Shown one piece after another: positions 448 through 24,888 of a stretch of 26,378 nt of DNA. Below the pieces are notes generated by a model. That model had not been told where the DNA came from, did no database searches, and was given only the letters and a program-made list of their open reading frames with translations. The position numbers and the translations under genes are program-made. Source of the DNA: a virus; the IMG/VR virus record IMGVR_UViG_3300011247_000042, positions 1 to 26,378 of that record; one strand, given 5' to 3'. Positions within the stretch are counted from its first letter, which is position 1, and each line of letters begins with the position of its first letter.

Positions 448-765
448 ATGGGTGTACGCGAAAACAAAGTGGAAAAGTATCTTGATGACCAGATAAAATC
501 ATTAGGTGGTATCACTCGTAAATGGGTATCACCTGGTCGTGATGGGGTGATGGATCAGATCTGTTTCTTGAACCCTGAATGGTATGTTGAAGTCAAAACT
601 ATTGACGGTATACACGAACCCCACCAGAAACGTGAAGCAATGAGACTGATTAAATGTGGTGCAAGAGTTGCTGTTGTATATGGTAACGAAGGTGTTGATA
701 AATTCATTCACTGGGTGGAAGTTAACCGTCATGAACAACCACAGATTCAAGTTGTGTTTAGATGA
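448..765 (+). CDS. VRR-NUC domain nuclease
   Basis: This 105-residue protein is essentially one stand-alone VRR-NUC domain, a PD-(D/E)XK fold. The expected residues are visible: Glu5 in the first helix (RENKVEKYL), the GVMDQ loop with Asp36, the VEVK strand with Glu48 and Lys50, and a Gln/Lys helix (HQKREAMRLIKCGARV) before a final strand. Family members act as structure-dependent endonucleases (FAN1 in eukaryotes), and small versions are common in phage replication modules, often beside SNF2 helicases. A role in resolving branched replication or recombination intermediates is therefore inferred. The start sits just after the previous stop, behind GAAGGTGGTGG. The stop overlaps the methyltransferase start as ATGA, suggesting coupled translation. 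Confidence 0.88.
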   Translation: MGVRENKVEKYLDDQIKSLGGITRKWVSPGRDGVMDQICFLNPEWYVEVKTIDGIHEPHQKREAMRLIKCGARVAVVYGNEGVDKFIHWVEVNRHEQPQIQVVFR

Positions 766-1799
766 ATGTATTAAGTTTGTTCGATGGCATGAGTTGTGGT
801 CGTATCGCATTATCTCGCGCTGGTATTAAAGTTGATAATTACTACGCCAGCGAATTAGATAAGTACGCTATTAAAGTGACTCAAGCAAACTGGCCTAACA
901 CTATTCAACTGGGTGATGTCACCAAATGGCGCGAGTGGGATATTGACTGGTCATCAATTGATTTGTTAATCGGTGGTTCACCATGTCAGGGTTTTAGTTT
1001 CGCAGGTAAACAACTGGCTTTCAATGACCCACGATCTGCATTATTTTTTGTGTATGTTGATATTCTTAATCATATTCGTACTGTCAACCCTGATGTAAAG
1101 TTCCTGCTTGAGAATGTAAAAATGAAACAGGAATATTTAGATGTGATATCCGAGTACCTTAACTGTAAACCTGTATTCATCAACTCAGCCTTGGTATCAG
1201 CACAAAACCGCCAGCGTTATTACTGGGCTAATTGGAAGTTCGATCAACCTGAAGACGGGGGGGTGATGTTAATTGATATATTAGAAAATAAACCGATGGA
1301 ATATACCCTAATGTCAGACAAGTTTATTCAACGACAATCAGGTAGAAAATGTTTAGTCGATTTTGATAAACCTAAATCTGTTAATTTATCATCAATGGAG
1401 TATGTTAAAAATGGCAGGCAGGGTGATTATATAGCATGTGATTCTGAAGGTTCACCTACACTTATGAAATGTGGATCAATGATAGGGCGAAAAATTAACC
1501 CATCAACTGGTAAACGTGATGATTACAATCCTGATATTAAAACTACCCAACGTCTTGAATTACGTGATGATGATAAAACAGGAACACTCACCACTGTACA
1601 AAAAGACAATTACATATCAGATGCAAAAGGTTATCGTAAACTCACACCGATTGAATGCGAACGTCTTCAAACTATCCCAGACAATTACACTGATCACGTC
1701 AGTAATACTCAGCGATACAAGATGCTAGGTAACGGTTGGACTGTTGATGTTATTACTCATATTTTTAAATCACTACAACCTGAAGTATCTTTCCTATGA
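762..1799 (+). CDS. C5-cytosine DNA methyltransferase
   Basis: This 345-residue protein transfers a methyl group from S-adenosylmethionine to carbon 5 of cytosine. Motifs appear in canonical order: motif I LFDGMSCGRIAL (residues 6-17), catalytic PCQG with Cys75, ENV (117-119), QNRQRYYW (148-155), the LTPIECERLQ segment and the final MLGNGWTVDVI motif X. The region between motif VIII and motif IX, about residues 160-290, should hold the target recognition domain. It is compact and clearly more AT-rich than its surroundings. No cognate restriction enzyme is visible, so it is probably an orphan phage methylase protecting viral DNA or modulating expression; the adjacent VRR-NUC is not a typical restriction partner. 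It overlaps both neighbours by ATGA. Its own Shine-Dalgarno is poor, which supports coupling to the upstream gene. The target sequence cannot be predicted. Confidence 0.95.
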   Translation: MNVLSLFDGMSCGRIALSRAGIKVDNYYASELDKYAIKVTQANWPNTIQLGDVTKWREWDIDWSSIDLLIGGSPCQGFSFAGKQLAFNDPRSALFFVYVDILNHIRTVNPDVKFLLENVKMKQEYLDVISEYLNCKPVFINSALVSAQNRQRYYWANWKFDQPEDGGVMLIDILENKPMEYTLMSDKFIQRQSGRKCLVDFDKPKSVNLSSMEYVKNGRQGDYIACDSEGSPTLMKCGSMIGRKINPSTGKRDDYNPDIKTTQRLELRDDDKTGTLTTVQKDNYISDAKGYRKLTPIECERLQTIPDNYTDHVSNTQRYKMLGNGWTVDVITHIFKSLQPEVSFL

Positions 1800-3292
1800 C
1801 TGACCTTCTCACCCCGCAACAACTTCACGAGTACCAGCGTCAATGTGTCATGCACCAGCTGCAGCACGACGACTCAATGCTGTGGCTGGGTATGGGTTTA
1901 GGTAAGACACCTGTTACCCTCACCACGATCATTGATCGTATGCGTGCAGGTCAGGTTCAGAAGACATTGATCTTTGGACCACTGCGAGTCATACAGGCTG
2001 TGTGGGCGCGTGAATCACGTAAGTGGAGTCATACTAATCATCTCAGGTTCAGCGTCATACACGGTGTCAAAGAGAAGCGTTCACGTGCACTGTTTGCTGA
2101 TGCTGATATCTATCTCATCAACTATGAAAATATGAATTGGTTGGCAGAACAACTGGACCACTACTACATCAGCCAGGGTAAACCGTTACCGTTTCAAATG
2201 GTCGTCTATGATGAAGTGTCGAAGCTGAAGAACTCAACCACATTACGCATGAAAGGTGGTAACCGAGATCGTAAAGATGGACGTGGTGAAACCTATAAAA
2301 TTAATGTCACTGGTTGGCGTAAGATTATTAAACATTTCAAATACCGTACTGGTCTGACCGGCACACCTGCATCAAATGGATACCTGGACCTTCACGGTCA
2401 GTACTTAGCTGTTGACGGTGGTGAACGACTGGGTGAATTCGTTACGCATTATAAAGACAGTTACTTCATGAGTGATTACAGTGGTTGGAAGTACACACCG
2501 ACAGTATTAGGTAAAGAATGGATTGAGCACAAGATCAGTGACATCACTGTGAAGATGGACGCACGTGACTACCTGGATCTTCCTGATGCAATAACAACAA
2601 ACATGATGGTTGACCTACCAGCATCAGCACGTAAGTCTTACAAAGAAATTGAGAAAAATTTATTCACTCAACTTGATAGTGGTAGTGAAGTTGAAGTGTT
2701 CAGTAAATCATCAGTGTCAAATAAATGTTTACAGTTCTGCAATGGGTCACCGTATTTCAGCAGCGAGTCATCAGAGTTTGAAGCGGTGCATGATGCAAAA
2801 TTAAATGCACTTGAAGAAGTGCTGGAAGAAGCCGGTGGTTCACCAGTGCTGTGCAGTTATTCATTCACAGCTGATGCTGATCGTATCATGAAGAAGTTCA
2901 AGAAATATAACCCGGTGAACCTGACCAAAACAAAATCAACTGACACCGAGAAAGTGATTGACCGGTGGAATAAAGGCGAGATTAAATTGTTAGTGGGTCA
3001 CCCTGCTTCAATGGGGCATGGTGTGGATGGCTTGCAGGACTCAGGTCACATTGTTGTGTGGTTTGGTATCAACTGGTCACTGGAACTATATGATCAGATG
3101 TGTGGGCGTATAGACCGTCAGGGTCAGACTCACCCTGTATCGATCATCAGGATCTTATGCAATGATACAATTGATCTGGCTGTTGCTGATGCTATAGAAA
3201 GAAAAACTGATGACCAGGAAGGGTTGAAGCGTGCGTTGCAGCGATACCGTGATGGTATCACTACGAATGATTTAGAAGTTAATTTCTTTTAG
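1796..3292 (+). CDS. SNF2-type superfamily 2 helicase/ATPase
   Basis: This 498-residue protein has both RecA-like lobes. Lobe 1 shows a Q-like LHEYQRQCV start, Walker A GMGLGKT (residues 32-38), a DEVS Walker B in place of DEAH (139-142) and motif III TGTPASNG (188-195). Lobe 2 shows SYSFTADADRI, the motif V region GHPASMGHGVDGLQ (401-414) and arginine-finger motif VI GRIDRQGQ (437-444). This matches the compact phage SNF2 proteins often found near VRR-NUC genes. They are presumed to translocate on double-stranded DNA and help replication or recombination. The start overlaps the methyltransferase stop (ATGA). The gene ends the + strand block and faces the holin gene 17 bases away. Confidence 0.93.
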   Translation: MTDLLTPQQLHEYQRQCVMHQLQHDDSMLWLGMGLGKTPVTLTTIIDRMRAGQVQKTLIFGPLRVIQAVWARESRKWSHTNHLRFSVIHGVKEKRSRALFADADIYLINYENMNWLAEQLDHYYISQGKPLPFQMVVYDEVSKLKNSTTLRMKGGNRDRKDGRGETYKINVTGWRKIIKHFKYRTGLTGTPASNGYLDLHGQYLAVDGGERLGEFVTHYKDSYFMSDYSGWKYTPTVLGKEWIEHKISDITVKMDARDYLDLPDAITTNMMVDLPASARKSYKEIEKNLFTQLDSGSEVEVFSKSSVSNKCLQFCNGSPYFSSESSEFEAVHDAKLNALEEVLEEAGGSPVLCSYSFTADADRIMKKFKKYNPVNLTKTKSTDTEKVIDRWNKGEIKLLVGHPASMGHGVDGLQDSGHIVVWFGINWSLELYDQMCGRIDRQGQTHPVSIIRILCNDTIDLAVADAIERKTDDQEGLKRALQRYRDGITTNDLEVNFF

Positions 3293-7243: not shown

Positions 7244-8293
7244 TTACTTACGCTCTGGACCAAACAACAGTTGACGTGCAGTGAGATCTTCACCTTCTTC
7301 AATAACGTCGTATAAGTGCTCACCAGTAGCCCACATCTGATTCACCCCTGGAATACCAGCTGCAGCGGCTACAAGTTTACTTGTGTTCTTGACAGCAGAT
7401 AATGTCATCTCTTCATCGGTGAACCCACGTTCGATCATCTGCTTACTACCTTGGATACCCTTCTCAAGTAATGATGCTACTGGTGAGCTATTGTAACCGA
7501 AATCACTCAGCAGACCGCTTGCTACATCACGCACGTAAGGTACTGATGTTATAGGGTAAAGTGCTACTTTAGTTAAAAAGTCACTCATACGATCATCTTC
7601 ACCTTCAGGTTCATCTAACTCACCACGCATTAACATTTCAAAGAACACAGGTAATGTGAACAAGAACATTGTTTTAGCAGCGACCGATGTCGGTGAATAG
7701 ATCCCAGTTCGAGCACCCTTCACCAAGTCACGTGACAAGTTACCCAGAGAACTGAAGAACGTCATGAACATGGTGAAAGTGGTATGTATCTTGCTTTGAT
7801 TCCTGAGTATCGTAGCCATGTCTTTAGTGGCACCCGAACCCTGTAAATTTTCAACAGACCAATCAGCACGATTGATAGCCTTCGATTCATCACCGGATTC
7901 ACTCAACTCTTTATCATAGGCTGCGTGCCACGTTGGTAAGTCGATCATGTAAGTCTGGATTAATGCGATGTGTTTCATTGATGTTTCTTGAACAGCAGCA
8001 ACCATACCTGATTTACCTTGCAGTCTATCCATCGCATTACGGATCTCACGGTCCATTGTTTTCGCACGATGGTTCATTACTTTAGATCTTTCAGCTGCAA
8101 AATCCCAACCGGTCTGCATGTCTTCACGACTACCTAATACTCTACGCAGTGCATTCATGTACCAGCTTCTACCTATCGTGGTGTATATACCTTGTACAGT
8201 AGGACCAACACCCAGTTCAGCAGCAGTGGTCATGATACCGAAAAGCTGCATGATACCAGTGGATGCTTTGAAACCCATCACACCTAATGTTGT
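7244..8293 (-). other. C-terminal LPD38-like hydrophobic region of the giant protein
   Basis: About residues 2560-2908. It has hydrophobic stretches near 2570 (GIMQLFGIMTTAAELGVG), 2727 (TFTMFMTFFSSLGNLSRDL) and 2770 (TMFLFTLPVFFEMLMRG), then a short conserved-looking tail with AAAGIPGVNQMW and a final LLFGP. Many giant phage structural proteins end this way. Membrane insertion during ejection is inferred. Confidence 0.55.
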
Positions 8294-11200
8294 GCCGAAA
8301 CGTAAACGCCCGAATGCAACATCAATGTAAGTTTTAACTGGCTGTTGACGACCGTCTTTAGCGACATCATTCAACCACGGTTTAAGTTGTTTGAACTCTT
8401 CTTCACCCAGTACACCAGTGATCGCACTTGCCACGTCAGGTGACTGTATAAGCCTGTTAGTCTGACGAACAGCATCATGGTGAGTAATGTAATGAATCGT
8501 TTCATTAAAGTGATCTGGGATGACTTCAAGGCTTAAATATATACGATCATAGAAACCTGTACGTTCATTCGTCGCACCTGTGTTCACTGATGACTGAATA
8601 CTGGCTGTGTTGTTAAACATTGACTCAGTTTCAGCTTCACGTTTCTCAGCGTTCTTCTCAGCTTTATGACTGCGCCGCGGTGAATATTTAACAGGGTAAT
8701 AACCACCTTTGAATGTACCGTGTTTAGTTTCCACCGGTGTTGATTGAACTTTCGGTGGTGTCAGACCTGTAGTACGACGGTGAACTTCAGCCAATTTAGG
8801 GTAAAGTAATTCCATTTGATCCCAAATCTTTTGCACCATCACCCAGTCACTTTTTGTCATGTGAGCAAGTACCGCTTGAAGTTTAGGGTTGTCGATACTG
8901 ATCTCAGCATCCACTTCAGGATTAGCCCAACCTTCACCGAGTAACATCTTCTTCAGGTTACCTTGGTTACCGGTGTTGAGTGCAACAGCGACCACCTGAT
9001 GACCCAGTAAATGATCATCAATCTCAGGTATGAATATTTTTCTCATGTGTCGTTTCTGATCTTCTTTACTACGACCACTGATTAACTCAAGCACAGGTGT
9101 AGCAACTTCATCGATCATTTTTATCTTGTCGTCAAGTGCATCAGTCATCGGTTGTACTAATATGTCGTGACTTAAACCCGCACGTTCACCACCGTCTAAC
9201 CATGATGCTAAGAATGGTATCTTGGTGAGTTGTGAAGCCCACTTGCGTATATGATCCATACCTGTTGCTTCACGTGCATCAGCAATACGACTGCGACTCT
9301 CTTTCGTTTCAAATCGCTGATCTTGTTCACCGATGTGATCGATCCACTGTGACTTCAATTTTTTGAAATCAACTTCTTCCTGCTGCATTCTGATCTTGTC
9401 AGCATAGCGTGCAACATGCTCAATGTTCTTCACAGAATCATTGATACCCTGCAGATCTGAGAATGGTACATTTTTCCAATGAGTCACATAAGATTCATTC
9501 AACACTGCGTTAGTCAGAGTCAATGCATCACCGGCTTCACCGTTGCGCTCATTCATCCATACGTTAAGGCTCTCAGTTTCTTTAAGTGTTGCCGCTTTTC
9601 TGAATTCAAAACGACCGAGGATCTTGACGATCTGATCCCAGTAACCACCTTCAACTTTCATGATGGATTCACGTACTTTCTTTTTGTTGTAACGTGCCAT
9701 ACGATCAACAATTTTAGTTGTCTCGTTTTTAGCATTCGTTGCAGCCATACCCAGATAGTAATTAGTGACCTGACGAAGTTTAGCTGCAGCTGCACCGTCG
9801 CGATTACCCTCTGCTAACATGCGTGCAGCTTCCTGTGCTGCTCTGATCTCAGCTTTACGGTACTTACCAGGGTGAATCTGTCGATACGATAACTTACCGA
9901 TACGTTCTTCAGCTAATGCTTTGATTGTTTGACGGTCAACAGTCGGTGCATTCGTACCTTTAGCAAGTGCTTTCAATTCTGCAAGGATTAACTTACCGCG
10001 TTCTTCACTAGCAACAGCTTCATCAGCTTCACGTTCAATCGTACCGTCAGTGAGAATGTCACCATGACGATCAATCATTGCAGCTTCAGCATTGACTTCA
10101 GCTTGCACCTTAATAGTAGGTGCAGTGATCAGATCATTAATCATCTCAGAACCTGAGTTGTAACCGAAGAATGCAGCAGCCTCATCAGGGTGCACACCTT
10201 GCAGACCTTTCGCAGTCATACCAATTAACTCAGGTGGAACAACAACAGATGTTTTACCTATCTTATTTGTTTTCTCTTCACCTGCCATTTCTTTAACAGT
10301 GGCATGGTCCAGTTTGATGTTCGCTTCTTGAGATTGTTTCTCAGCTTCAACTTTGTCCTGCTCAATAGAATCCATATCAGATTCAAGTGCATCAATTTCA
10401 GCACCTACATCAGCGTTCACATAAGTGGTGTCAGCTGTTAACGTATCGAAAATAATATCAAGTGCATCATTCGATGTTAAACCACCACCTTTATAATCTT
10501 GTTCATTTAATTTTTCAGCAAAGTCATCAACAGTCATACCGCCTTTAGCCGGGAACAATGGTTTACCAGAAACCTTATCTTTAAAGTGAGCAGGGTCAAC
10601 ACCTTCACTTTCCATTGACTCACGATTTAAACCACTAGATTTAGCAATGAATTTACCAATGGTGTCGTTTTCTCGTTTTAACTTTTTAACACGTTTGTCA
10701 ATTTCTAATATTTCTTTATCAAGCCCTTCAATAATGACATCGAAAGCTTTTGTTGTTAATGGTGTTTTAAGACGTTCACGAGTCAGATGAACTTGTTGCT
10801 TACTCAATGATTCAATTTCTTCATCAACAATGTCTTGTTTTTCTTCCTTCCACCACTTCTCAGTTTGACGTGTTAACTGTTTAATAATCTTGTCACGCAG
10901 AGTTTCAGATTGTACATCTTTCACTTTTTCCTGACGTATTTGATAATCAGCAAATTCTTTTTCAGTCATGCCAGCCATCGTTGCATCAGTGAATAACGGC
11001 TCAACACGTGCACGCGCCTCAGCCGCTTGGATCTGTTCTTCAGTAGCCAGCAGACGATCAAATACCTGACGCATTTCAGCATCAAGGTTCACATTAAGTT
11101 GACCCTTCAGTGCTTGATAAATACGTGACAACCAACGTGCAAACGCTCTGAAAGCATTACGCAGTTCAATCGACGGTGCTTTACCTTCCATTAGATAAGT

Positions 11201-14200
11201 TTCAAAACCGCGTGCGAAATGCTCATGTACAGCACGACGGATTGCATCATCACGTTCTTTATCACCAGTTGTACCTTCATCAAGGAATGCAACTACATGA
11301 CTCGGTATGATCGTGGTGTTTGGTGCGTACTCACCAGCCTCTTTAGCTACATCTTCAGCATTACGTTTGTACCAACTGTTGATACTCTTCAACATCTCAG
11401 TATCACCGTTGACTTCCATCTCATACATGAAGTGTGCGAACTCATGTAGGAAGGTAGACAGGTCAGCTGCTTCAGTTAATCTGATGATGCTGTTAGCTGG
11501 GTCGTAGTAACCACGTGGTTGTTTCTTCTCTGGTGTTGGTTGGAATAACAATTGTTTCTGTTTCGCAATAACGTCAGCACGTGAAGCTTTATCTTTAGGA
11601 TCATAAGTTTTGATTTTCAGACCAGCGTCTTTCAAAATTTGAAGTGCATCTTTACGCATACCACGTGGAACTACAGCAGTGTTGAATTCTTCAAAACCTA
11701 CAGCACGTTGTACTTTTGCTTCAAAGTAACTGGTAGGAAGTGCAGTCAAATACTCAAGCAGATCATCAACAATTTGCTGTGCTTCAGGTGTCATGTTGAA
11801 TGCTTCATTCAGACCTTTACGACCTTCAATGATTGCATTACCAGCATCATCAGAATACCCCCCTGAGCTGGTGTCATATTTATAGAATGGTTTTAAATCA
11901 TCAAGTGCTTGTGAAAATACATCAGCAGATTCTTCTTTGATTTTCTTCATATCTTCTTCAGATACAATTTCATCACGTTTAGCTTGTATCTGTTTGATGG
12001 TCTTCATTTCATTCGCAAATTTTGAACGAACAGTACCGGCACCATAGAAGAACGATTCACCAGCTTGAAGTTGCTGAGTCATTTCTTTAACGACATTCTG
12101 AAGATTGTAATCGATGTACTTACGGTTACCCGATGGTGTAAACCCTTTAAATATTTTCTTACCAGTGACCATTTTATTAAACTGTTCAGTAGCCCACTGT
12201 TCGTATTCATTACGATTCTTTTTGACGCGAATCTTTTTAACAATGTCTTCTCTTAGTTTACCTGTATCGATACCACCACTTCTGCGAAAACGATCAACTT
12301 GACTAGCAAGGTCACGTAATTTTGATAATTTTAATGACCCATCTTCATTGAAATACCAGTCAGTCATTTTCTCAACACGAACATCAAAACCTTTTTCTGT
12401 TAACGCATCAAGTTGAGCCTGATAATGATCAGTTGCTATCTTTATAAATTTTTCATCTTCAACTAAATTAATAGGGTGAACATCAATTTTCGCAGCTTTA
12501 CGAACAACAGGGTCAACTTTTGCTTTTTTCAGTTTCGGTTCTTTACCTTGAAGTTTTAACCAATGATACTCAACAGCTTCTGACCTGAGAAAATTGTCAG
12601 GTCCAGTTGTATCTTCCATTGAATTGATATCAGGTTTACTTAATTCTAAATTATCAGGGTCAAGCTGCTGATATAATTCACTGTAAACATCTTGATCAAT
12701 ATCGTACACAGCACGAGGTTGACGTGGTGAATAGATATCAGCATCAAATGTACGTGCTTTAGGGTCTTCAAGCAACTTAGGATCTGCTAATAATGTGACC
12801 TCACCAAAACCTGTGAAATCTGAGACACCTGCACGAGCTACTGCAATAGAAGGTGCAGCAAGTCCACCGAGATCTTCAGCTGCTAAAATATTTTCTGCAC
12901 TTAAATTATGAGCAACAAATAAATCTTTTTCTGGTTCAACTTGACCTTCCTGGAAGAACACTTCAGCTTCTTCTAACTTACTAAGCGTTGAACCTTCAAA
13001 TGCAATAGCCCAGTTCAGACCTTCAACCAGTACACCGTCATGACCCATGTCCATGAGTGACTGACGACGGACCATCACTTCTTCAGGTGTGAGATCACTC
13101 ATGACATCAGCGAATACTTCAGCACCGATGACAAGTGGGTTTTCAAATGTGAATTCGTGAACGCTTAGTTCGTGACCGTATCGTTCTTGATTACCAACAT
13201 CGTCAGCAGAGAGATAGTGACCGAGATTACCCGCTGGTGTAGTGGTGTTCTGACCCAGCAGACTGTCGTCAAACTGGGTGAAGTCTTCAGGTGAACGGTG
13301 TGTGAATGTTACTGACTCACCTGCTTTTGCCCGGTTGAACTCGGATAAAGCTTCTGCGTCAGTTCTTGCTTTCGCTCTGTCGATAGTTTCTTGCTGGGTA
13401 GCACGCGCTTCAGTAGCGACGGCTTCTTGGTCAATTTCTTCAGGTCGTCTTGTAATTCGCCCATCTTCTGATACCTCTCCTGGTTGAAACAATAGATCAG
13501 CTTCATCGGTTGTAAACTTCTCTGTGTTACTTTGTAGCACAGGTATAGCGTTTTGTACAGTTAAATCAATACCTTTACCCTGAGTAAACTCCTGACCTTT
13601 CAAATTCATATCTGATGGGTCTGATGTATATTCAGGTTGAGTTATAACAACAGGTACACTTTTATACCCAGCTTTAGCTAAAGCCATCATGCGATGACGA
13701 CCTTCATGAGTAATGATTTTACCGTCTGTTTGAATCCTTAAATTAGGTACATCAACTTCACTTTGTAATTGTTCAACATCTAATTCAGTAGACTCAGCTT
13801 CAATCACAGTCACATCAGGGTGAGTCAATGCTACAAAATCAATAGGATCAATATAAGCAACACGTGCTCTTGTTTCTAACCCGTTAGCATGAACATAATC
13901 TTCTAATAATTCACCCACCCGTTCAGGTGTAAACCCAGCTACTTTAGTACGTTCTTCAGGTAAATCTAACTCATCACGTCGATCTTTAGCTTCCTGAATT
14001 TTAAATATTGATTCACTTATATCTTTATCAAGAGTACCTTCAGGGAATATTTCATCAAATTCAGCTAGTAACTTAGTCAGAACATTATCTTCCTGACTAA
14101 GTAATATCTCACCTTCAAGACGTGCGCGCTCACCGGTCTGAGGACCTTCGACAACCAACCCAGCATCAGTATAAATCTGCTGCACTGTCTTACCCTGACG

Positions 14201-15970
14201 ACGTGCTTGAGCTGTAGCCCACGCAGGTACGATCTGAGCCATGATTGATGCATTAGCCGGTGTCACTTGACCTGTATCGATTAACTGATCACGTACAGTG
14301 CTGTAGATCTCCTGAGCTTCAACGTACTCGCTGGTGTTCTCTTGAGCTTCATCCATCAAAGTTTTAACGTAATTTTCAGTTTCTTGTTTAGATTGTTCTT
14401 GTCTGAATGGTGAAGTTGTCTCATCACTCATGGTCATGCTGTCACGTAACTCAGCATAGTGTTCAGTACCTGCGATATCAGCAGCAAAATCAGCGACTGG
14501 GATCTGGACATCATTACCTTGTGCAGAAGCTTCACGCGCCTGATCAGCTAACAACTGCAGTGCAGGATCTGCTTCAATTTCTTCACGAGTTTTATCTTGC
14601 AGGTATAACGAAGTCTGAGCACCATCGATAAACACGTGAGTATTATTCTCACCGTCAGCTTCTTCAACAAACTGTTTAAATGATTCTTTATCACGTTCAC
14701 GTAATTTTGATTTCTCAGACTGTTCATTCAATTTGTCAATTTTCTGCTGCTCAATATCACCTTGATTCTGTTTTTTACTCTCATCTTGAGTCAATGCTTC
14801 AATGCTTTTACGCACACCAGTGACAGCTGTAATCTGAGCACCACCTGCAACTACTGTTGCAATGGCAGTGACGGCTTGACGACGTAATTGGATTTGAACC
14901 ATCTCACCGACATCTGCAGCTTGCTCCATTTCTTTGTCAAGACCGAAAGCGTATGAATTCAAACTCTGACCCAGTGTAGCCAGTTGTTCAGTACCCATTT
15001 CTTGAATAGCAAACTTCAGTGCTGATTTAGTCAACCCTTCACTTTTACCGAGTAAAATAGTTTCAAGTGTTTTAGTAGGTAATAACTCAGTACCGACTTC
15101 AATAGCCGCATCAATACCTGCGAACCAAGTTGCTTCGCCTGGTGTCAGACCATCAGCACGACCACTACCGTATGAGCCAGTAAACGTCTGAGCACCGATA
15201 GTAGTAAGCAATGGTGCAGCACGACCACCTGATGCTAACATTAATGCAAACCCAGGAGCCATGTGACCCAGTGACTCAATACCGGCTCGAACACCTTCTT
15301 CAAGCAGGTTCATGTCTTCAGGTGTTAAATTCTGTTGCTTCTCCTGAAGTCCACGTATTTCAGTCAACAATTTATCAGTTGACTCTTGTTTTACTTTCTG
15401 AAGTTCTTCATCAGTGGTGATACCCATCGACTCAGCAAACTGTGTTGACATCATCTGAGTTTCTTGGATTGACATCACACCCATAGGCATAGCACCCATT
15501 GGTATCAGATCTTGAATACGATCAGGTGCTGCATCAACACCAGCTAATTGAAAACCTTTACCTTGAGTACTGAACCCGGTAAGGATTGATTCACCTATGT
15601 TTTCAAATGTTTTACCAAAATCAAAGATGTCTTCAATCGTTTGCAGAACATCAATGTCATCTTGAGCGATGACAGAGTTATTAAAATCAGTGAGGTATTT
15701 AGCCGTGTTAGGGTTGCGTGTTGACATCTGATTGAAGTCAATATTGTCTAACTTCAAACCGTGTTCAACTTGAGCAGGATCTGAATCAACTGCGAATTCA
15801 GGTACACCGGATTGTTTACTGAGTTTAGTTGTTTGAGCATGTTGATCAGGGTTGATCTTCAATGCTTCGTCCATATTGGCACGAACCTGAGTATTTAATT
15901 CAGGTTGAGTATCATCTTCTTCACTGATACCGAAACCACCGAGGTCAATCTTTTCCAGATCTAAAGCCAT
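7244..15970 (-). CDS. Giant internal virion / polyvalent ejection protein (T7 gp16 position)
   Basis: This is a single uninterrupted 2908-residue frame. Regions in order: a disordered acidic N-terminus; a hydrophobic Gly/Ala-rich segment (about 235-395) like those of DNA-ejection proteins; a region at 445-600 common in phage polyvalent proteins (HVFIDGAQ, DVQIPVADFAA); a ParB/sulfiredoxin-like region (697-777, HEGRHRMMA at 755); an ADP-ribosyltransferase-like region (887-1004); a Lys-rich segment; a zincin region (HEFAH at 1509, HEHFARGFE at 1582); long coiled coils (about 1600-2300); and a hydrophobic C-terminus (about 2560-2908) resembling the LPD38-type domain. It probably leaves the virion with the DNA, forms part of the trans-envelope conduit and delivers enzymatic domains to the host. 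I see no lysozyme-like domain as in T7 gp16. The start overlaps the upstream stop (TAATG). Confidence 0.88.
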   Translation of the reverse strand: MALDLEKIDLGGFGISEEDDTQPELNTQVRANMDEALKINPDQHAQTTKLSKQSGVPEFAVDSDPAQVEHGLKLDNIDFNQMSTRNPNTAKYLTDFNNSVIAQDDIDVLQTIEDIFDFGKTFENIGESILTGFSTQGKGFQLAGVDAAPDRIQDLIPMGAMPMGVMSIQETQMMSTQFAESMGITTDEELQKVKQESTDKLLTEIRGLQEKQQNLTPEDMNLLEEGVRAGIESLGHMAPGFALMLASGGRAAPLLTTIGAQTFTGSYGSGRADGLTPGEATWFAGIDAAIEVGTELLPTKTLETILLGKSEGLTKSALKFAIQEMGTEQLATLGQSLNSYAFGLDKEMEQAADVGEMVQIQLRRQAVTAIATVVAGGAQITAVTGVRKSIEALTQDESKKQNQGDIEQQKIDKLNEQSEKSKLRERDKESFKQFVEEADGENNTHVFIDGAQTSLYLQDKTREEIEADPALQLLADQAREASAQGNDVQIPVADFAADIAGTEHYAELRDSMTMSDETTSPFRQEQSKQETENYVKTLMDEAQENTSEYVEAQEIYSTVRDQLIDTGQVTPANASIMAQIVPAWATAQARRQGKTVQQIYTDAGLVVEGPQTGERARLEGEILLSQEDNVLTKLLAEFDEIFPEGTLDKDISESIFKIQEAKDRRDELDLPEERTKVAGFTPERVGELLEDYVHANGLETRARVAYIDPIDFVALTHPDVTVIEAESTELDVEQLQSEVDVPNLRIQTDGKIITHEGRHRMMALAKAGYKSVPVVITQPEYTSDPSDMNLKGQEFTQGKGIDLTVQNAIPVLQSNTEKFTTDEADLLFQPGEVSEDGRITRRPEEIDQEAVATEARATQQETIDRAKARTDAEALSEFNRAKAGESVTFTHRSPEDFTQFDDSLLGQNTTTPAGNLGHYLSADDVGNQERYGHELSVHEFTFENPLVIGAEVFADVMSDLTPEEVMVRRQSLMDMGHDGVLVEGLNWAIAFEGSTLSKLEEAEVFFQEGQVEPEKDLFVAHNLSAENILAAEDLGGLAAPSIAVARAGVSDFTGFGEVTLLADPKLLEDPKARTFDADIYSPRQPRAVYDIDQDVYSELYQQLDPDNLELSKPDINSMEDTTGPDNFLRSEAVEYHWLKLQGKEPKLKKAKVDPVVRKAAKIDVHPINLVEDEKFIKIATDHYQAQLDALTEKGFDVRVEKMTDWYFNEDGSLKLSKLRDLASQVDRFRRSGGIDTGKLREDIVKKIRVKKNRNEYEQWATEQFNKMVTGKKIFKGFTPSGNRKYIDYNLQNVVKEMTQQLQAGESFFYGAGTVRSKFANEMKTIKQIQAKRDEIVSEEDMKKIKEESADVFSQALDDLKPFYKYDTSSGGYSDDAGNAIIEGRKGLNEAFNMTPEAQQIVDDLLEYLTALPTSYFEAKVQRAVGFEEFNTAVVPRGMRKDALQILKDAGLKIKTYDPKDKASRADVIAKQKQLLFQPTPEKKQPRGYYDPANSIIRLTEAADLSTFLHEFAHFMYEMEVNGDTEMLKSINSWYKRNAEDVAKEAGEYAPNTTIIPSHVVAFLDEGTTGDKERDDAIRRAVHEHFARGFETYLMEGKAPSIELRNAFRAFARWLSRIYQALKGQLNVNLDAEMRQVFDRLLATEEQIQAAEARARVEPLFTDATMAGMTEKEFADYQIRQEKVKDVQSETLRDKIIKQLTRQTEKWWKEEKQDIVDEEIESLSKQQVHLTRERLKTPLTTKAFDVIIEGLDKEILEIDKRVKKLKRENDTIGKFIAKSSGLNRESMESEGVDPAHFKDKVSGKPLFPAKGGMTVDDFAEKLNEQDYKGGGLTSNDALDIIFDTLTADTTYVNADVGAEIDALESDMDSIEQDKVEAEKQSQEANIKLDHATVKEMAGEEKTNKIGKTSVVVPPELIGMTAKGLQGVHPDEAAAFFGYNSGSEMINDLITAPTIKVQAEVNAEAAMIDRHGDILTDGTIEREADEAVASEERGKLILAELKALAKGTNAPTVDRQTIKALAEERIGKLSYRQIHPGKYRKAEIRAAQEAARMLAEGNRDGAAAAKLRQVTNYYLGMAATNAKNETTKIVDRMARYNKKKVRESIMKVEGGYWDQIVKILGRFEFRKAATLKETESLNVWMNERNGEAGDALTLTNAVLNESYVTHWKNVPFSDLQGINDSVKNIEHVARYADKIRMQQEEVDFKKLKSQWIDHIGEQDQRFETKESRSRIADAREATGMDHIRKWASQLTKIPFLASWLDGGERAGLSHDILVQPMTDALDDKIKMIDEVATPVLELISGRSKEDQKRHMRKIFIPEIDDHLLGHQVVAVALNTGNQGNLKKMLLGEGWANPEVDAEISIDNPKLQAVLAHMTKSDWVMVQKIWDQMELLYPKLAEVHRRTTGLTPPKVQSTPVETKHGTFKGGYYPVKYSPRRSHKAEKNAEKREAETESMFNNTASIQSSVNTGATNERTGFYDRIYLSLEVIPDHFNETIHYITHHDAVRQTNRLIQSPDVASAITGVLGEEEFKQLKPWLNDVAKDGRQQPVKTYIDVAFGRLRFGTTLGVMGFKASTGIMQLFGIMTTAAELGVGPTVQGIYTTIGRSWYMNALRRVLGSREDMQTGWDFAAERSKVMNHRAKTMDREIRNAMDRLQGKSGMVAAVQETSMKHIALIQTYMIDLPTWHAAYDKELSESGDESKAINRADWSVENLQGSGATKDMATILRNQSKIHTTFTMFMTFFSSLGNLSRDLVKGARTGIYSPTSVAAKTMFLFTLPVFFEMLMRGELDEPEGEDDRMSDFLTKVALYPITSVPYVRDVASGLLSDFGYNSSPVASLLEKGIQGSKQMIERGFTDEEMTLSAVKNTSKLVAAAAGIPGVNQMWATGEHLYDVIEEGEDLTARQLLFGPERK
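11201..11446 (-). other. Zinc-metallopeptidase signature within the giant protein
   Basis: HEFAH (residues 1509-1513) provides an HExxH zinc-binding helix, preceded by STFL as in phage polyvalent metallopeptidases. About 70 residues later HEHFARGFETYL (from 1582) supplies the glutamate expected as third ligand (Glu1590), followed by the F..FARWLSRIY helix usual in this family. All catalytic residues appear intact. Confidence 0.75.
12959..13312 (-). other. ADP-ribosyltransferase-like (ART-PolyVal type) region within the giant protein
   Basis: About residues 887-1004. TFTHRSPEDFTQFD opens with the His of the H..F..FD pattern (His891). GNLGHYLSADD (around 918) matches the G.G.Y.S step where NAD-binding aromatic residues lie. 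MGHDGVLVEG (Asp978-Gly979) and an IAFE strand match the closing (Y/H)DG(V/I) ... (V/I).F pattern. A canonical catalytic glutamate is not obvious by eye, so activity is uncertain. Confidence 0.6.
13640..13880 (-). other. ParB/sulfiredoxin-like (DdrB-type) region within the giant protein
   Basis: About residues 697-777. A YIDPIDFVAL start and a DGKIITHEGRHRMMALAKAG helix with the G-R-H-R motif (755-763) precede a VPVVIT strand. This is the ParB/sulfiredoxin nucleotide-binding signature, which also occurs in polyvalent phage proteins. Whether it binds a nucleotide here is not known. Confidence 0.6.
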
Positions 15971-17577
15971 TAGTCACTCGCTTGTTTGTATGCTCTAATT
16001 AAGTTATCAGCTGTCACAGGTTTGTTATTATCACGTAAGAATTTACTCAACACTGATACATCATCGGCTGGTATATCAGTTAAATCAAGTTCAGTGTCAA
16101 AGAATCTACCCTCCTGCACAACAGTACGGGTTAACCCTGATAACATGTTAGTATACTCTTCAGACGTTAATTTACGATCTAAATCCGATTCACGTGCGTT
16201 AACTTCATCATCGAGTAAGGCATAGAACCCATTTGCCTTTTCACGTTTTTTCTTATTCTTACTCCATTGTGATTTCTTACCAAACAACTGTTCAACAGCT
16301 GCTGTGGTCTGAGCTGATCGAGTACGACCAACCTGGTGATCAACTTTATCTTTTGGCGATCCTGTACCACCTGCTGACTTCACCGCGCTGATTAATCGAC
16401 TGCGTTCAGTTTTAGCCAACTTATCAAAATGTTCAGTAGGGTCTACTTTCGCCAGTTCAGCTTTTGGAAGTAACATCAAATCACTGTAAGTATTCCAATC
16501 GGTTGTTGCTACGACACCTGATTCAATACTGCGTTGCTGTTTCGTTGACAAAGTTTCCCACTCTTCAGGGTTAGTAGCTTGGAATGATTCAGCTGAACCA
16601 CCTTTAAGAATATGACTCTCAGCATCTTCAAATGAACTGGCACGCGCTTCTGATTCAGCTTGTTTCTTACGAGAGAACTGACTCATGGTTTCAGTCATTG
16701 TTTTCTTGCGTAAGTCTTCATCTTCAATTTTATTCACTTCTTCCATAGCATCACTGCGATCATCATATTGATCAACTAAACGGGTGGCTGTGGCAACTGC
16801 TACACGAGCATCATTTTGAGTCTTCTCAACTTTTTCTTTCTTTTCAATCAGACTTTCCATCTTAACTTTATCAGGACCTTCTAATCGATCACCGTAATCT
16901 TGAAGTGCAACTTTACCTTCAACAGCACTACTCTGAGTAGCTGCATTGATAGAAGATTTTGCAAATGATGACTCAAATGTTTGCAGTTTCTCAGCGGTCG
17001 CTTCTGGACCTAAACCCATCATCTCAGATGAATCGATAACTGCTTGACGACCAAGTACGTTCTGAACTTTCAACCGATCTGGATCATTGAAATATAATGA
17101 AGCATTCTCAATTGAATTCTCAGTCTGTGATTCAAGAGTGGTTATTTCCCACGCTTTCAAACCTTTTGATGCATGACGTGTAATATCTAAATTACTACGA
17201 GTGATATGTCTATCAGCAGAACGATCAAACAATCTCTTAGCATTAGAATTAAGACTTTCACCGTATTGCTTTTTCAGAGCTTCAAGTGATTGTGTAGCAG
17301 CTGTTGAATTATCATAGGCATTTTTACCCTGGGTATTGAAATAACCAGATTCAGGGTTGAAGAACAAGTCATTCTTACTGCGTTCAAATTGAACCAGTGA
17401 CTCTTCAGCTGATGTAACATCAACACGCTGCTTGAGTGCTGCACCTGCTTTAACAACGTCAAGAATACCCTTACCAATCGCCTGCCCAAAAGCACCTTTT
17501 GGTGCAGCTTTCGCTAAAGGTTGTGCTACTACTTGTGTTGATACCTGTGATGGTCCGTACTGTACAATTGTAGGCAT
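15970..17577 (-). CDS. Internal virion protein, T7 gp15-like position
   Basis: This 535-residue, mostly helical protein lies between the gp14-like gene and the giant gene, the place of T7 gene 15. The segment FFNPESGYFNTQGKNAYDNS (about 72-91) is a landmark shared by internal core proteins of many podoviruses. A long Glu/Lys-rich coiled-coil middle (about 200-330) and a PTEHFDKLAKTERSRL-type helical C-terminus follow. It would be part of the core stack inside the capsid and be ejected with the DNA to help form a channel across the envelope. The start is ATG behind AGGTGG. The stop shares one base with the start of the giant gene, indicating coupled production. Confidence 0.78.
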   Translation of the reverse strand: MPTIVQYGPSQVSTQVVAQPLAKAAPKGAFGQAIGKGILDVVKAGAALKQRVDVTSAEESLVQFERSKNDLFFNPESGYFNTQGKNAYDNSTAATQSLEALKKQYGESLNSNAKRLFDRSADRHITRSNLDITRHASKGLKAWEITTLESQTENSIENASLYFNDPDRLKVQNVLGRQAVIDSSEMMGLGPEATAEKLQTFESSFAKSSINAATQSSAVEGKVALQDYGDRLEGPDKVKMESLIEKKEKVEKTQNDARVAVATATRLVDQYDDRSDAMEEVNKIEDEDLRKKTMTETMSQFSRKKQAESEARASSFEDAESHILKGGSAESFQATNPEEWETLSTKQQRSIESGVVATTDWNTYSDLMLLPKAELAKVDPTEHFDKLAKTERSRLISAVKSAGGTGSPKDKVDHQVGRTRSAQTTAAVEQLFGKKSQWSKNKKKREKANGFYALLDDEVNARESDLDRKLTSEEYTNMLSGLTRTVVQEGRFFDTELDLTDIPADDVSVLSKFLRDNNKPVTADNLIRAYKQASD

Positions 17578-17580
17578 GTC

Positions 17581-18144
17581 TTAACCACCTAAACTTAAAT
17601 CAGCTGATGTTATCGAAGGGTCGTAATTCGACAAGTTCGCAGCACTATTAGGTGTGTACCATGAATCAGATACACCTGTATCAAATACACCTGTGTTTAT
17701 TGTTTTAGCACCGCCACTGAGCACTGTACCGAGAGATTGTTGAACACCTGCTGATGCTGCGAATTCACCTTGACTCAATGTTAAGTCAGCACCTGTTTCT
17801 AATGATCTGGCTTTTGCTTCAAAATTACTACGAATACGCAGAGCATCAGCTTCACCGAGGGTGACCGTATCTTCTTGTAATTGCAGAGGTGACCCACTTG
17901 TTAATTCAACATTAGCTGCACCGAGTTGTGCACGCTGTTTCGCTAATAATTGAGCAGTCTTCTGACGCTGAGTATTTTCAGCTTCTGCACCTGCTGTACG
18001 CACGTCTTGAGCACGATTCTCAGCAACACGTGCGTTGTACTTACTAACATCTCGCTGATACCGGCCTTGCTGATATTGACCTCTGGCTACAAGAACCGTT
18101 GAAGCAACAGTTGCTACTGCTGCTATCGTTGCTGGTTCACACAT
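17581..18144 (-). CDS. Internal virion protein, T7 gp14-like
   Basis: This 187-residue protein has an N-terminal hydrophobic helix (ATIAAVATVASTVLVA, residues 5-20) followed by a long Gln/Arg/Ala-rich coiled coil (YQQGRYQRDVSKYNARVAENRAQ onward) and a Gly/Ser/Ala-rich C-terminus. This composition and order are typical of the virion core protein family that includes T7 gp14, which on ejection inserts in the outer membrane as the first part of the DNA conduit. A GAGAGG ribosome binding site precedes the ATG. The gene lies 2 bases after the gp13-like gene and 3 bases before the gp15-like gene. Confidence 0.8.
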   Translation of the reverse strand: MCEPATIAAVATVASTVLVARGQYQQGRYQRDVSKYNARVAENRAQDVRTAGAEAENTQRQKTAQLLAKQRAQLGAANVELTSGSPLQLQEDTVTLGEADALRIRSNFEAKARSLETGADLTLSQGEFAASAGVQQSLGTVLSGGAKTINTGVFDTGVSDSWYTPNSAANLSNYDPSITSADLSLGG

Positions 18145-18146
18145 TA

Positions 18147-18617
18147 TCAGGTCCTCTCAAGAGTAAATTTATGGAATAACGCATTATCACATCCATACGG
18201 TAAAGGTTCGTCAATAGTGAACCCGATCCATTCAAGCCATTTCATGCTGACTTTATTCTCAGTATGTACATAATTGAACAAACTGGGGCAAATAGCCAAC
18301 ATCTCATCAATGACTGCAGGTACTTCAGTAAGAAAATGACGTTTATATTTTAATGCATTTTCAGTACCCAGTAACCAGGGTGAACCAGTTCCAGACAATA
18401 TATCATGAATCACCAACCCTAGCATCACACAGGGTTCATCATTCACAGTAACTATCACTGATCGATTTGATACCTTCCAACTTCTCATCAATGATTCAAT
18501 GGGTGTATGGTGATTTGAAGCCCATACTTCATCAGCATCAGCTTGACGCATGTCAGCAGCAATCGCTTCGATGAGCTCCTGAGTTGGTTTGATAAATTTA
18601 ACTTCCACCAATATCAA
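18147..18617 (-). CDS. T7 gp13-like internal protein with GNAT-like fold
   Basis: This protein of up to 156 residues has an acetyltransferase-like arrangement: an N-terminal helix (PTQELIEAIAADMRQADADEVW), strands SVIVTVNDEPCVMLGLVIHD, then YVHTENKVSMKWLEWIGF, the typical end of a GNAT-like domain. Members lie at the gene-13 position in T7-like tail modules. T7 gp13 is needed for virion morphogenesis, and acetyl transfer is not shown for the family. The start is uncertain: the longest frame begins at a TTG (18617) inside the nozzle gene, with a second TTG at 18611 and a GTG at 18608, and no ATG before Met23. A CAGG six bases before the second TTG makes that start plausible. Confidence 0.78.
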   Translation of the reverse strand: MILVEVKFIKPTQELIEAIAADMRQADADEVWASNHHTPIESLMRSWKVSNRSVIVTVNDEPCVMLGLVIHDILSGTGSPWLLGTENALKYKRHFLTEVPAVIDEMLAICPSLFNYVHTENKVSMKWLEWIGFTIDEPLPYGCDNALFHKFTLERT

Positions 18618-21138
18618 CCTGTGGGATTACTGACAATATAGCCATCGGTAAAGGTGATCGTTGTTCAATACGAACACCACCACTCTTACCCCATAAAGGA
18701 TCAATAGATACTTCCTGTTTATATGTTTTTAATGCAATAGCATCATAAGCATCAGCATCAAATCGTGGTTTAATTTCTTGGAATGTTACAGGTTGTCCAC
18801 TGGTAGGGTCTTGACGTGGACCAACAAAACCACCACGTGTACCTTCAACTTCCAGATACACTTTAGACACTGACACTGATTTTGCTTTTAATGTTTCAAC
18901 AACTGACGCTGAATCAAGATCAAGTGTTTCAATAGCGGGTACATAAGGTAGACCTACGTGTACTTTAGATGCTGCACGAGTTAATGTAATACCACCTGAT
19001 ACCACTGTTTGATTATCTGTCACATACCCATCAGTTAAGATTGCAACTTCTTTACCTTCAAGATGACTTAATCCGGTAATGCTAGTCGCAGGAGCACCGT
19101 CATAAGACAAACCTGAATCAACGTAAAACGCATCTTCAGCGTTCACACTTTCACGTGCTTCAAGGCGTTCAACATATCGTTTAGTCACACCACCGATTGT
19201 CCGTTTAACAATCACATAAACTGCATCACGACCTTCTTCATTAATTGTTGCTATTGATTCAAACTCACCATCAGTATTATGTTGGTGCCATCCCCAGACT
19301 TGATGCTCACGTAAATAAGTAAGACCTAATAAAACACCGTCATTACGAACACACCATAAAATACCGTAAGGTTCATCTGCGTAGGCCATCTCAATAATCT
19401 GATGACCTTCAAATAAATGTTCTGACATTATTGATAAGTCATTACCTGTATATTTATCACTGCTGAATTCATAACCTAAATCACGAATACGTGCACCTTT
19501 CTCTTGTAAATACAATGCAGTACTGTTGATGACTACAGGTTTAACCCATGATGCCCCGTTATAAGATTGAGGGCGTACACCGATGGTCGCTGGTGTAAGC
19601 ACTCTGTCTTGACCTTCACTTACAATCCATTCACCACCGGATGTTAATAAGATCATTGAATCAAGTGACATGATGTGTCTGATCTCATTCACTTGCTGTG
19701 CTGCAATAGTAAAAGTCACAGCGTCATCAGCACGAGCCGGGTTTGATGTACGCAGAGAATTAAAATTATTAACCTGGGTAGTATATGTCGCTTGTGGTTC
19801 ATTATTTGTATTAGCGAATACTTGACGTTGCTGATAATAATTAACAACAGCAGGTTTGTTATCAACACTATTAAACGGTTGCCTGTCTTCAGGTGGTGCA
19901 TCACTGGTGATCGGTGCAATATTATAATCATCAAAAGTATTATTGTTAGAATCACCGATCCAACCATAAATTTGAGTATTGTTCGATGGGTCTTTATAAA
20001 CCCGGTAATATGTAGCACCTGCAACTGCACCCCATGATATCCGAACACCACCGGTTACTGATAATGAGTTAGTAATGACAGATACTGATACTGATGCTAA
20101 CGATTCGATACCTGCTTCATTAACAGTGGTAACAACATACGTGTATGTTTTTTCAAAATCACCGAAACCAGAACCTACTGTCACAGCAGCAGTTTGTCTG
20201 GTTGCTGTACCATCTGACGTATAAGCAGTATGTAAAGTGGAATCTTCACCATCGAGTTCAAAAGTAGTAGTTGATAAAACAGTGAGTCTGAACGATCTAC
20301 CATTAACTTCAGTCATACCTACAACAGCAGCAATATCAATGACATTACCTGTCACGAATCCGTGAGCCCCTGACGTAGTGACTACAGCAGGGTTTGCTTG
20401 TGTGATACCTGTTATAACTGCAATATCTGGACTTGCAAATACAGGTGGTGTAACAGTTGATGCATAACTGATAGTGGTCAGGGTCCAGTGACCATCAAAT
20501 ATTCGATTGAGATTACGAGGGTCATGACTAGGATGAACAAGAGTTAAAACATCAGCAGACTGAGTGTACCCGAGTCTGGATAGTTGTGCTTCAGTGTAAG
20601 GGGTTACCAATTCAAAAATAGTTACACCTTGAGCCACACCACCTGATACATAAGCAGTGAATGCTGTGCTATCGATCCCGGACAATTCAAAAGTAGAATC
20701 AGTCCTATTTGCAACAGTGTAAGTGTTACCGTTGAGCTCAGTCATCCCTACCACATCAGTAATAGTAACAGTCTCACCATTGGTGAAAGTATTTGCAGAT
20801 GTGACTACAGCAGGGTTTGCTTGAGTGACCCCAGTGATTGATGATGATTTAAGTAAATAACCACCGTCTTTCATGACTCTCATTTTGAGATCTTCAAAGA
20901 CTAATATATAAGTTTGTTCAGTATTGAAGCTGAATGGTATCAATCGACCGACTTTAGATGAGTCATCTAACTCACCACGGAAACTGAACCCAGGGCGTGA
21001 ATAGACACCACCTTGAGCACGCACAAAAAAGTTCTCACAGAGGTTAAGACCAGTGGTGTATTTAGTAAGATCTGCACGAGATTGTAACCCTGGCGCAATC
21101 TCACCGGATGTAAAACTGCGTTGAATAGTTTGTGGCAC
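18598..21138 (-). CDS. Tail nozzle protein (T7 gp12-like tail tubular protein B)
   Basis: This 846-residue protein forms the distal tube of the tail. The N-terminus, with SFTSGEIAPGLQSRADLTKY, the NFFVRAQGGVYSRPGF stretch and LIPFSFNTEQTYILVF, is the hallmark of T7 gp12-type nozzles. Two inserted repeats of about 70 residues, at 101-172 and 242-314 (ITGVTQANPAVVT... and ITGITQANPAVVT...), resemble the FCCH domain found in such proteins, and 320-418 looks like a fibronectin type III module (YTYVVTTVNEAG). The C-terminal half continues the propeller-like core (GGEWIVSEG, PYGILWCVRNDG). The start is GTG, chosen because AGGAGA lies 6 bases upstream and the N-terminus matches the family. The stop overlaps the gp13-like gene by up to 20 bases. 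Confidence 0.92.
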   Translation of the reverse strand: MPQTIQRSFTSGEIAPGLQSRADLTKYTTGLNLCENFFVRAQGGVYSRPGFSFRGELDDSSKVGRLIPFSFNTEQTYILVFEDLKMRVMKDGGYLLKSSSITGVTQANPAVVTSANTFTNGETVTITDVVGMTELNGNTYTVANRTDSTFELSGIDSTAFTAYVSGGVAQGVTIFELVTPYTEAQLSRLGYTQSADVLTLVHPSHDPRNLNRIFDGHWTLTTISYASTVTPPVFASPDIAVITGITQANPAVVTTSGAHGFVTGNVIDIAAVVGMTEVNGRSFRLTVLSTTTFELDGEDSTLHTAYTSDGTATRQTAAVTVGSGFGDFEKTYTYVVTTVNEAGIESLASVSVSVITNSLSVTGGVRISWGAVAGATYYRVYKDPSNNTQIYGWIGDSNNNTFDDYNIAPITSDAPPEDRQPFNSVDNKPAVVNYYQQRQVFANTNNEPQATYTTQVNNFNSLRTSNPARADDAVTFTIAAQQVNEIRHIMSLDSMILLTSGGEWIVSEGQDRVLTPATIGVRPQSYNGASWVKPVVINSTALYLQEKGARIRDLGYEFSSDKYTGNDLSIMSEHLFEGHQIIEMAYADEPYGILWCVRNDGVLLGLTYLREHQVWGWHQHNTDGEFESIATINEEGRDAVYVIVKRTIGGVTKRYVERLEARESVNAEDAFYVDSGLSYDGAPATSITGLSHLEGKEVAILTDGYVTDNQTVVSGGITLTRAASKVHVGLPYVPAIETLDLDSASVVETLKAKSVSVSKVYLEVEGTRGGFVGPRQDPTSGQPVTFQEIKPRFDADAYDAIALKTYKQEVSIDPLWGKSGGVRIEQRSPLPMAILSVIPQVDIGGS
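20378..20400 (-). repeat. Direct repeat copy 2 (nozzle FCCH-like domain)
   Basis: A 23-base segment identical to 20801-20823, coding the QANPAVVT part of the second FCCH-like repeat. The flanking bases diverge. It marks an internal duplication or gene conversion in the nozzle gene. Confidence 0.8.
20801..20823 (-). repeat. Direct repeat copy 1 (nozzle FCCH-like domain)
   Basis: A 23-base segment identical to 20378-20400, spaced 423 bases away, a multiple of three. Recombination between the copies would stay in frame and leave a single hybrid domain. Confidence 0.8.
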
Positions 21139-24189: not shown

Positions 24190-24888
24190 TTAAGTATCTG
24201 TTGGATACATTCTATCGACACGATCACCAGCTGGATTAGATGAAGCACCGGATGAACCAGGTACATCTTCATTCAACGTGCGACCAACTTTTACCATAAA
24301 CCGAATGACTTCAGGATGGTTACCCATACCGTGATCTTTCAGTAACTGTTGTAATTCTGGTGTACCGTATTTATTAACAGCATTCTGTGCAACTTTGACA
24401 TTTTCATCAAACTTGTCTCCACCGAACTCACCGTCATTTTCAGATTGAGTACGCCAGTCTTCAAGCAGCTGGTTGAAGTCGTCGAATTGCTTCTGCGAAC
24501 TCGCCTGGACTTGTTTTGCCGCAATATCCATGAGCTTTTGAGCCTGTTCCTGAGTAGCATTCAATTCTTTAAGAATTGGAGCTGCTTCAGTAAGAAGAGT
24601 CTCATCAAGCGTCACACCATCGGGCATAACAAAATCGGCATAAGTGTCGGGAACCTCATCACTACCTTCTGTACCAGCATCTGTATCACCGTCAGCAATG
24701 GGGTTACCATCTGCATCAAGCTCTACATTATCATCAGTAGACGCAGAAGCATCTCCTTCAGAATTTGTGTCTGCAGCATTACCATCTGCAGTACTTTCGT
24801 CACCAGTTAAAACTGTACCTGTATCATTAGTATCTACAGCATCAGCACTTGATTCTGTCTCAACGCCAGTTGTCGCTTCGTCACCCAT
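24190..24888 (-). CDS. Capsid scaffolding protein
   Basis: This 232-residue protein lies immediately upstream of the capsid gene, the standard scaffold position. Residues 1-80 are a disordered, strongly acidic Asp/Thr/Ser/Ala/Gly stretch. Residues 85-205 are helical (TLLTEAAPILKELNATQEQAQKLMDIAAKQVQ, then FDDFNQLLEDWRTQ and YGTPELQQLLKDHGMGNHPEVIRFMVKVG), the conserved core seen in scaffolds of this phage group. The tail (GSSGASSNPAGDRVDRMYPTD) has the basic-then-short end often used for capsid binding. No protease motif is visible. Start: ATG with AAGGAG about 8 bases upstream, overlapping the end of the Bbp19-like gene by 8 bases. Confidence 0.85.
   Translation of the reverse strand: MGDEATTGVETESSADAVDTNDTGTVLTGDESTADGNAADTNSEGDASASTDDNVELDADGNPIADGDTDAGTEGSDEVPDTYADFVMPDGVTLDETLLTEAAPILKELNATQEQAQKLMDIAAKQVQASSQKQFDDFNQLLEDWRTQSENDGEFGGDKFDENVKVAQNAVNKYGTPELQQLLKDHGMGNHPEVIRFMVKVGRTLNEDVPGSSGASSNPAGDRVDRMYPTDT

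Follow-up and report, generated by a model that had tools for sequence, protein, structure and literature searches.

Phage polyvalent proteins are held, as a general claim, to bundle effectors and travel with the DNA, and zincins have been proposed to process the polyvalent chain (Iyer et al. 2017, PMC5512222). No border motif or cut site was found in their text, from which the words 'linker' and 'LFQ' are also absent. The giant protein gp69 of phage JC1 has been found in virions by mass spectrometry (PMC9144972), the vRNAP of phage N4 is present in 4 +/- 1 copies and is ejected into the host (PMC12633501), and residues 700–1000 of Bbp10, from Bordetella phage BPP-1, are a seed of the published CLCA_X metalloprotease family (PMC3650047). 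Sequence comparison identifies the giant protein described here as a phage polyvalent protein of the Bbp10 family, and the protein class is therefore already known. The novelty lies in an arrangement of frame and cassettes, with border peptides, that could not have been recognised from a single sequence; no earlier description of such a system with frame-specific border peptides was found in the open-licence literature searched.

The window, by which we mean the whole stretch of DNA analysed (26,378 bases, IMG/VR record IMGVR_UViG_3300011247_000042), comes from a short-tailed phage related to Vibrio phages. Its nearest annotated relatives are Vibrio phages 1.185.O, 1.021.A, PS25B.1 and MZH0603 (about 60% identity), and the next is BPP-1 with Bbp10. 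As the initial annotation had noted, about a third of the window (33% of the record) is taken up by a single uninterrupted frame, which has 2908 codons and lies on the minus strand; since full-length homologues of its product are present in many phages, the frame is not due to chance. On this strand, the portal gene is followed by those for a small protein, the protease, the major capsid protein and the tail tube proteins, then by those for internal virion proteins of gp13, gp14 and gp15 kinds, the giant gene and a tail fibre gene; the giant gene overlaps the gene upstream of it by one base. The genes that bear on its role are the following.

24190..24888, minus strand: head protease-like protein (PHROG 458), a possible alternative cutter
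18147..18617, minus strand: internal virion protein (PHROG 308; weak match to T7 gp13)
17581..18144, minus strand: gp14-like internal virion protein (PF24072, E = 4e-8)
15970..17577, minus strand: gp15-like internal virion protein, N-terminal PHROG 1044 'endolysin'
7244..15970, minus strand: putative polyvalent ejection protein, whole gene (2908 amino acids; ATG at 15970, stop ending at 7244)

The giant gene, which directly follows the gp14-like and gp15-like genes, indeed occupies the place of T7 gene 16, as first claimed. In relatives, the gene syntenic to the gp15-like one is annotated 'structural lysozyme', and no lytic domain was detected in the giant protein of the window. Elsewhere in the window, the tail tube B-like protein (18598–21138) contains ubiquitin-activating-enzyme E1 FCCH-type domains (PF16190, E = 2.7e-23, two stretches), which are also found in relatives, and a 166-residue protein of the head/tail region (22120–22620) has no match to any PHROG family. 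The opposite-strand early genes (448–3292) include those for a PHROG 93 endonuclease-type protein, a C5 cytosine methyltransferase and an SNF2-type helicase. In the record of Vibrio phage 1.185.O (locus L013), a short CRISPR-like spacer array is annotated inside an opposite-strand early gene, at 26624–26841.

Three parts of the giant protein form a conserved frame, namely an N-core (residues 1–626), a zincin (1480–1735) and a helical C-core (1885–2908). The homologue set consisted of 11 close loci, then 80 wider loci, together with the named phages; HMMs built for the N-core, the two zincin parts and the C-core were used to parse the 83 proteins in which every frame part is represented, and the frame is constant across them. 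Slot 1, between the N-core and the zincin, measures 5–1519 residues in these homologues (858 in the window), slot 2, inside the zincin, 0–342 (11 in the window), and slot 3, before the C-core, with few exceptions about 3–25 or 136–166 (149 in the window). From the N-terminus onward, the window protein is made up as follows.

14105..15970, minus strand: N-core (residues 1–622, before the border LLSQ at 623–626), conserved frame part with a hydrophobic stretch at 366–384
15623..15880, minus strand: LPD22 domain (31–116; Pfam, E = 2.3e-15)
14093..14104, minus strand: border peptide LLSQ (623–626), at the end of the N-core
13481..14008, minus strand: cargo 1, ParB/sulfiredoxin-like module (655–830), with a HEGRHR motif at 755
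13484..13495, minus strand: border peptide LLFQ (826–829)
12968..13345, minus strand: cargo 2, ART-PolyVal-like ADP-ribosyltransferase (876–1001), with H891, Y919 and E992
12950..12961, minus strand: border peptide VFFQ (1004–1007)
11552..12949, minus strand: cargo 3, PBECR5 (predicted RNase) block (1008–1473; PBECR5 Pfam E = 7.9e-13)
11533..12930, minus strand: segment 86.5% identical in DNA to homologue L038 (residues 1014–1479), almost certainly a horizontally exchanged cassette
11540..11551, minus strand: border peptide LLFQ (1474–1477), immediately before the zincin core
10766..11533, minus strand: zincin metallopeptidase core (1480–1735), frame part; slot 2, empty here, lies at about 1547–1557
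11432..11446, minus strand: HEFAH zinc motif (1509–1513), invariant in 20 homologues
10370..10696, minus strand: slot 3 mobile module (1759–1867), found elsewhere in other members
7247..10318, minus strand: C-core (1885–2908), mostly helical frame part

LPD22, ParB/Srx-like, ART-like, PBECR5 and zincin domains are thus found in one chain, whose gene lies among virion genes, between the gp15-like and the tail fibre genes, in keeping with a phage polyvalent protein. Across 76 members, the cargo of slot 1 includes ART-PolyVal (28), PBECR5 (23), GNAT (8), GGDEF (4), RadC (4) and kinase (2) domains as well as zeta toxin, GHKL ATPase, nucleotidyltransferase and MuF-C types, and slot 2 carries an ART or a GNAT domain; close relatives, too, differ in cargo. 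The initial annotation had placed the novelty in the particular combination of domains, which was misplaced, because cargo changes from phage to phage and the exact combination is therefore unremarkable.

Within the frame, the N-core is probably a membrane or ejection region. The Gly/Ala-rich character ascribed to it proved mild, with 22% Gly+Ala at residues 120–400 against 16% overall, and its LPD22 domain, present in 19 of 20 homologues, had been overlooked. The zincin assignment was borne out by the invariant HEFAH motif; the region is 38.6% identical to Bbp10 over window residues 1486–1717, and its HExxH domain, homologous to Bbp10 700–1000, is of the CLCA_X type. The predicted structure of the C-core is almost wholly helical and, when compared with the PDB, the model had no match; dozens of giant phage proteins do match it in their C-terminal parts, and some of these are annotated as polyvalent, ART-PolyVal, MuF or nuclease. 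Of the first reading as a whole, what stands is that the protein is polyvalent, takes the position of internal virion protein D and has credible enzyme-like domains. The LPD38-like C-terminus was not recovered (PF18857 had no HMM match even at E = 10), and membership of the gp16 family was not supported (hhalign probability 1.1% for the C-core and 0.2% for the whole protein).

The cargo modules differ in how readily they can be assigned. The ParB-like module was folded alone with AlphaFold (pLDDT 82.8), and the structural matches listed for the model, of the ParB/sulfiredoxin type apart from one uncharacterised protein, are weak (Z 2.2–4.3), the top one being the plasmid protein Osa (Z 4.3 over 138 residues). 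The earlier ParB-like call holds at this level of the fold; the Pfam model of DdrB-type ParB (PF18763) has no match in the window. Relatives of the module are found in slot 2 of one homologue (L045) and in unrelated giant phage proteins. The ART-like region likewise has no Pfam match to ART-PolyVal (PF18760) in the window, and the values for two homologues (L027, 0.0077; L038, 1.4e-6) are both under the cut-off. It receives indirect support from a profile-profile comparison with true ART-PolyVal domains (hhalign, 93.1%, E = 3.2e-7), and seven close relatives retain the H891-Y919-E992 set almost in full. In the close relative L025, Arg replaces the ART histidine (VRRS versus VHRS or THRS), and this copy may therefore be inactive. 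PBECR5 (PF18814), which had escaped the initial annotation, spans residues 1008–1104 with 49.3 bits against a cut-off of 25, covering only profile positions 7–105 of 239. The slot 3 module, of about 110 residues, had been passed over as well; it has no Pfam family, also opens slot 1 in distant homologues and recurs in unrelated 58–62 kb Vibrio phages.

It is almost certain that cassettes are exchanged between phages as units. Two relatives (L010 and L001) have 77–81% of the C-core in common with the window and none of its cargo, whereas two others (L038 and L047), with a C-core at only 23–24%, have the PBECR5 block at 90% (identity in protein) and 66%. In DNA, the window matches the 32-kb L038 locus over a single stretch of 1398 bases at 86.5% identity, which starts seven residues past the VFFQ border and ends within two residues past the LLFQ border.

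The peptides at these edges share the form hydrophobic-x-Gln. Directly before the zincin core, this form is present in 75 of 76 proteins, compared with 15–31 in control windows, and a narrower form, with Phe or Tyr before the Gln, in 32, compared with 0–4. Before PBECR5, hydrophobic-x-Gln is found in 24 of 24 cases (2–10 in control windows), behind 16 unrelated upstream modules, and a restricted form marks 21 of 33 unrelated cargo ends. When slot 2 is filled, a border is seen on both flanks (9/10 and 10/10), and in close relatives slots 1 and 2 have one border when empty and two when filled, as if each cassette brought its own terminal border; in MZH0603, the N-core is joined directly to the zincin via one VLTQ border. 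The border at the end of the N-core is clear only in close relatives, as over the whole family it is present in 64 of 78 proteins, other N-core windows reach up to 63 of 78, and it is not separable from its Gln-rich surroundings. The signal is one of position and not of overall abundance: plain L[FY]Q occurs 18 times in the first 21 proteins, not above the shuffles (12.3, maximum 20). At BLAST break points inside slot 1 the narrow motif is not enriched, and we therefore limit the claim of a border to sites compared with a fixed domain edge.

Giant proteins that contain the ParB module of the window in another frame and with another type of zincin led to a second polyvalent family, with HExxHAL-type zincins (48 non-redundant members; loci L099–L108 and L120–L199). 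Its border takes the form D-[IV]-[RK]-[YF]-S-L-[RK], which occurs 39 times in 25 proteins against 11.5 expected, in many cases immediately after an ART tail or the ParB/Srx module, and which is not enriched in slot 1 of the window's family (3 against 8.6 expected). In the window's family, x-Gln comes after the ART tail N-x-G-T-F-D...P-D-I in 11 out of 11 proteins, whereas the same tail in the second family ends in R-Y-S-L-R, R-Y-N-L-R, K-A-S-L-R or R-L-S-L, and the sole 'Q' match there is not an ART tail. Because the ART tail is the same and the border differs by family, the border type goes with the frame and not with the cargo. This covariation with the zincin clade is also covariation with the phage lineage.

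The best explanation of the whole, to which we assign a probability of roughly 0.5, combines a fixed ejected frame, swappable cassettes and cutting by the zincin at the borders. A fixed delivery frame, made of N-core, zincin and a helical C-core of ~1000 residues, would be packaged in the phage head and then driven, along with the DNA, into the cell through a channel made by the gp14- and gp15-like proteins, and the giant protein would act as a third ejection protein, at the inner membrane or in the cytoplasm. Interchangeable enzyme cassettes, here the ParB/Srx-like module, the ART and the PBECR5 block, are spliced into this frame, each with a short hydrophobic-x-Gln border peptide at its end; cleavage of these peptides by the embedded zincin, either during assembly or once the protein has entered the cell, would free the enzymes to act on host nucleic acids and proteins. 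Ejection of the giant protein with the DNA is very likely, and we infer both its packing in the head and its ejection from the gene position and from analogy with T7 and N4. Internal virion proteins of phage phiRIO-1 reportedly carry cytoplasm-bound domains. Cutting by the zincin is put forward more tentatively, at somewhat less than even odds; the borders adjoin the embedded peptidase and change in type with the peptidase clade, which suggests that it is the zincin that cuts there. More speculative again is a general border code, in which hydrophobic-x-Gln would go with STFLHE-type zincins and D-I/V-R/K-Y/F-S-L-R with HExxHAL-type zincins, an enzyme of any kind could be loaded provided that it carried the local peptide at its end, and the train would be cut into single effectors by the zincin at infection.

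The same borders could belong to an effector-carrying ejection protein whose chain stays whole, like N4 vRNAP, serving as structural linkers or docking strands, so that the cassettes could unfold and be threaded through the tail or could lie against the frame. This reading, which we consider possible but rather unlikely, draws on N4 gp50, which works as one chain with a membrane NTD, cargo, an HExxH C1 and a helical C2, and which is packaged intact and showed no degradation on purification, a fact that counts against cutting; moreover, the border before the zincin could be simply part of the zincin fold. Yet the same type of peptide brackets PBECR5 and the slot 2 cargo, away from the start of the zincin, the type that follows the same ART tail differs between frame types, and N4 lacks such a peptide at its RNAP-CTD linker. 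Another cutter may also be envisaged, the capsid maturation protease of each phage lineage in place of the embedded zincin. Head proteases of giant phages cut many ejection proteins, the window encodes a PHROG 458 protease of its own (24190–24888), and the peptide type tracks phage lineage as well as zincin clade. We nonetheless regard this as improbable, as the zincin adjoins the most conserved border and is the processor proposed in published work (PMC5512222).

Two further readings seem highly improbable to us. Were the protein a plain structural ejection protein whose enzyme-like regions are inactive remnants, the weak ParB and ART matches of the window itself and the loss of the ART histidine in L025 would be accounted for, but catalytic-type residues are otherwise conserved, and neither the replacement of cargo by unrelated enzymes at the same place nor the recent transfer of one cassette would be expected of dead filler. 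As for border peptides that would be footprints of a DNA-level recombination site for cassette swapping, with no protein role, the exchanged DNA does end within two codons of the LFQ border. However, all six Leu codons, both Phe codons and both Gln codons are used at the borders and differ between borders even within the window; selection therefore acts on the protein, a second protein-level dialect exists, and a DNA recombination site as the cause of the peptide is rejected on this codon variation.

Splitting of polyvalent proteins by zincins has been proposed since 2017, and the border peptides now give it predicted cut positions and, with the second dialect as a built-in control, make the cutting idea directly testable. 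A fixed frame with swappable cassettes cut by its zincin would, if true, explain how one injection protein is reloaded with new counter-host enzymes without redesign, and would help to locate effector cassettes, and to set their limits, in the many giant phage proteins that lack annotation.

Among described proteins, Bbp10 of BPP-1 has homologous N-core, zincin and C-core in the same gene order, but it is shorter (2052 residues), about 28–39% identical over shared segments and carries little slot 1 cargo (160 residues). The giant 'coil containing' or hypothetical proteins of Vibrio phages 1.185.O, 1.021.A, PS25B.1 and MZH0603 have a frame ~60% identical and the same gene order, with other cargo or none; virion mass spectrometry of a close relative was not found in the open-licence literature. 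The polyvalent proteins of Iyer et al. (PMC5512222) are likewise single late-gene chains in which several domains with no relation to one another, of the zincin, LPD, ART, PBECR and ParB types, are joined. P1 DdrB, which is processed, and the DarB-like JC1 gp69 and Bcep22 gp75 are also giant polyvalent proteins, built on other frames with other cargo, and are virion-associated. T7 gp16 (internal virion protein D) resembles it in genome position, after gp14- and gp15-like genes. Homology to N4 gp50 was not detected by hhalign (0.7% for the C-part) or by the frame HMMs, which were silent on it, and N4 vRNAP differs in that its cargo is one RNA polymerase, without a border peptide at the RNAP-CTD linker, and is not known to be cut. 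By analogy of layout, with a membrane N-part, cargo, an HExxH domain and a helical C-part of about 1100 residues, N4 vRNAP is nevertheless the best functional parallel to the window protein.
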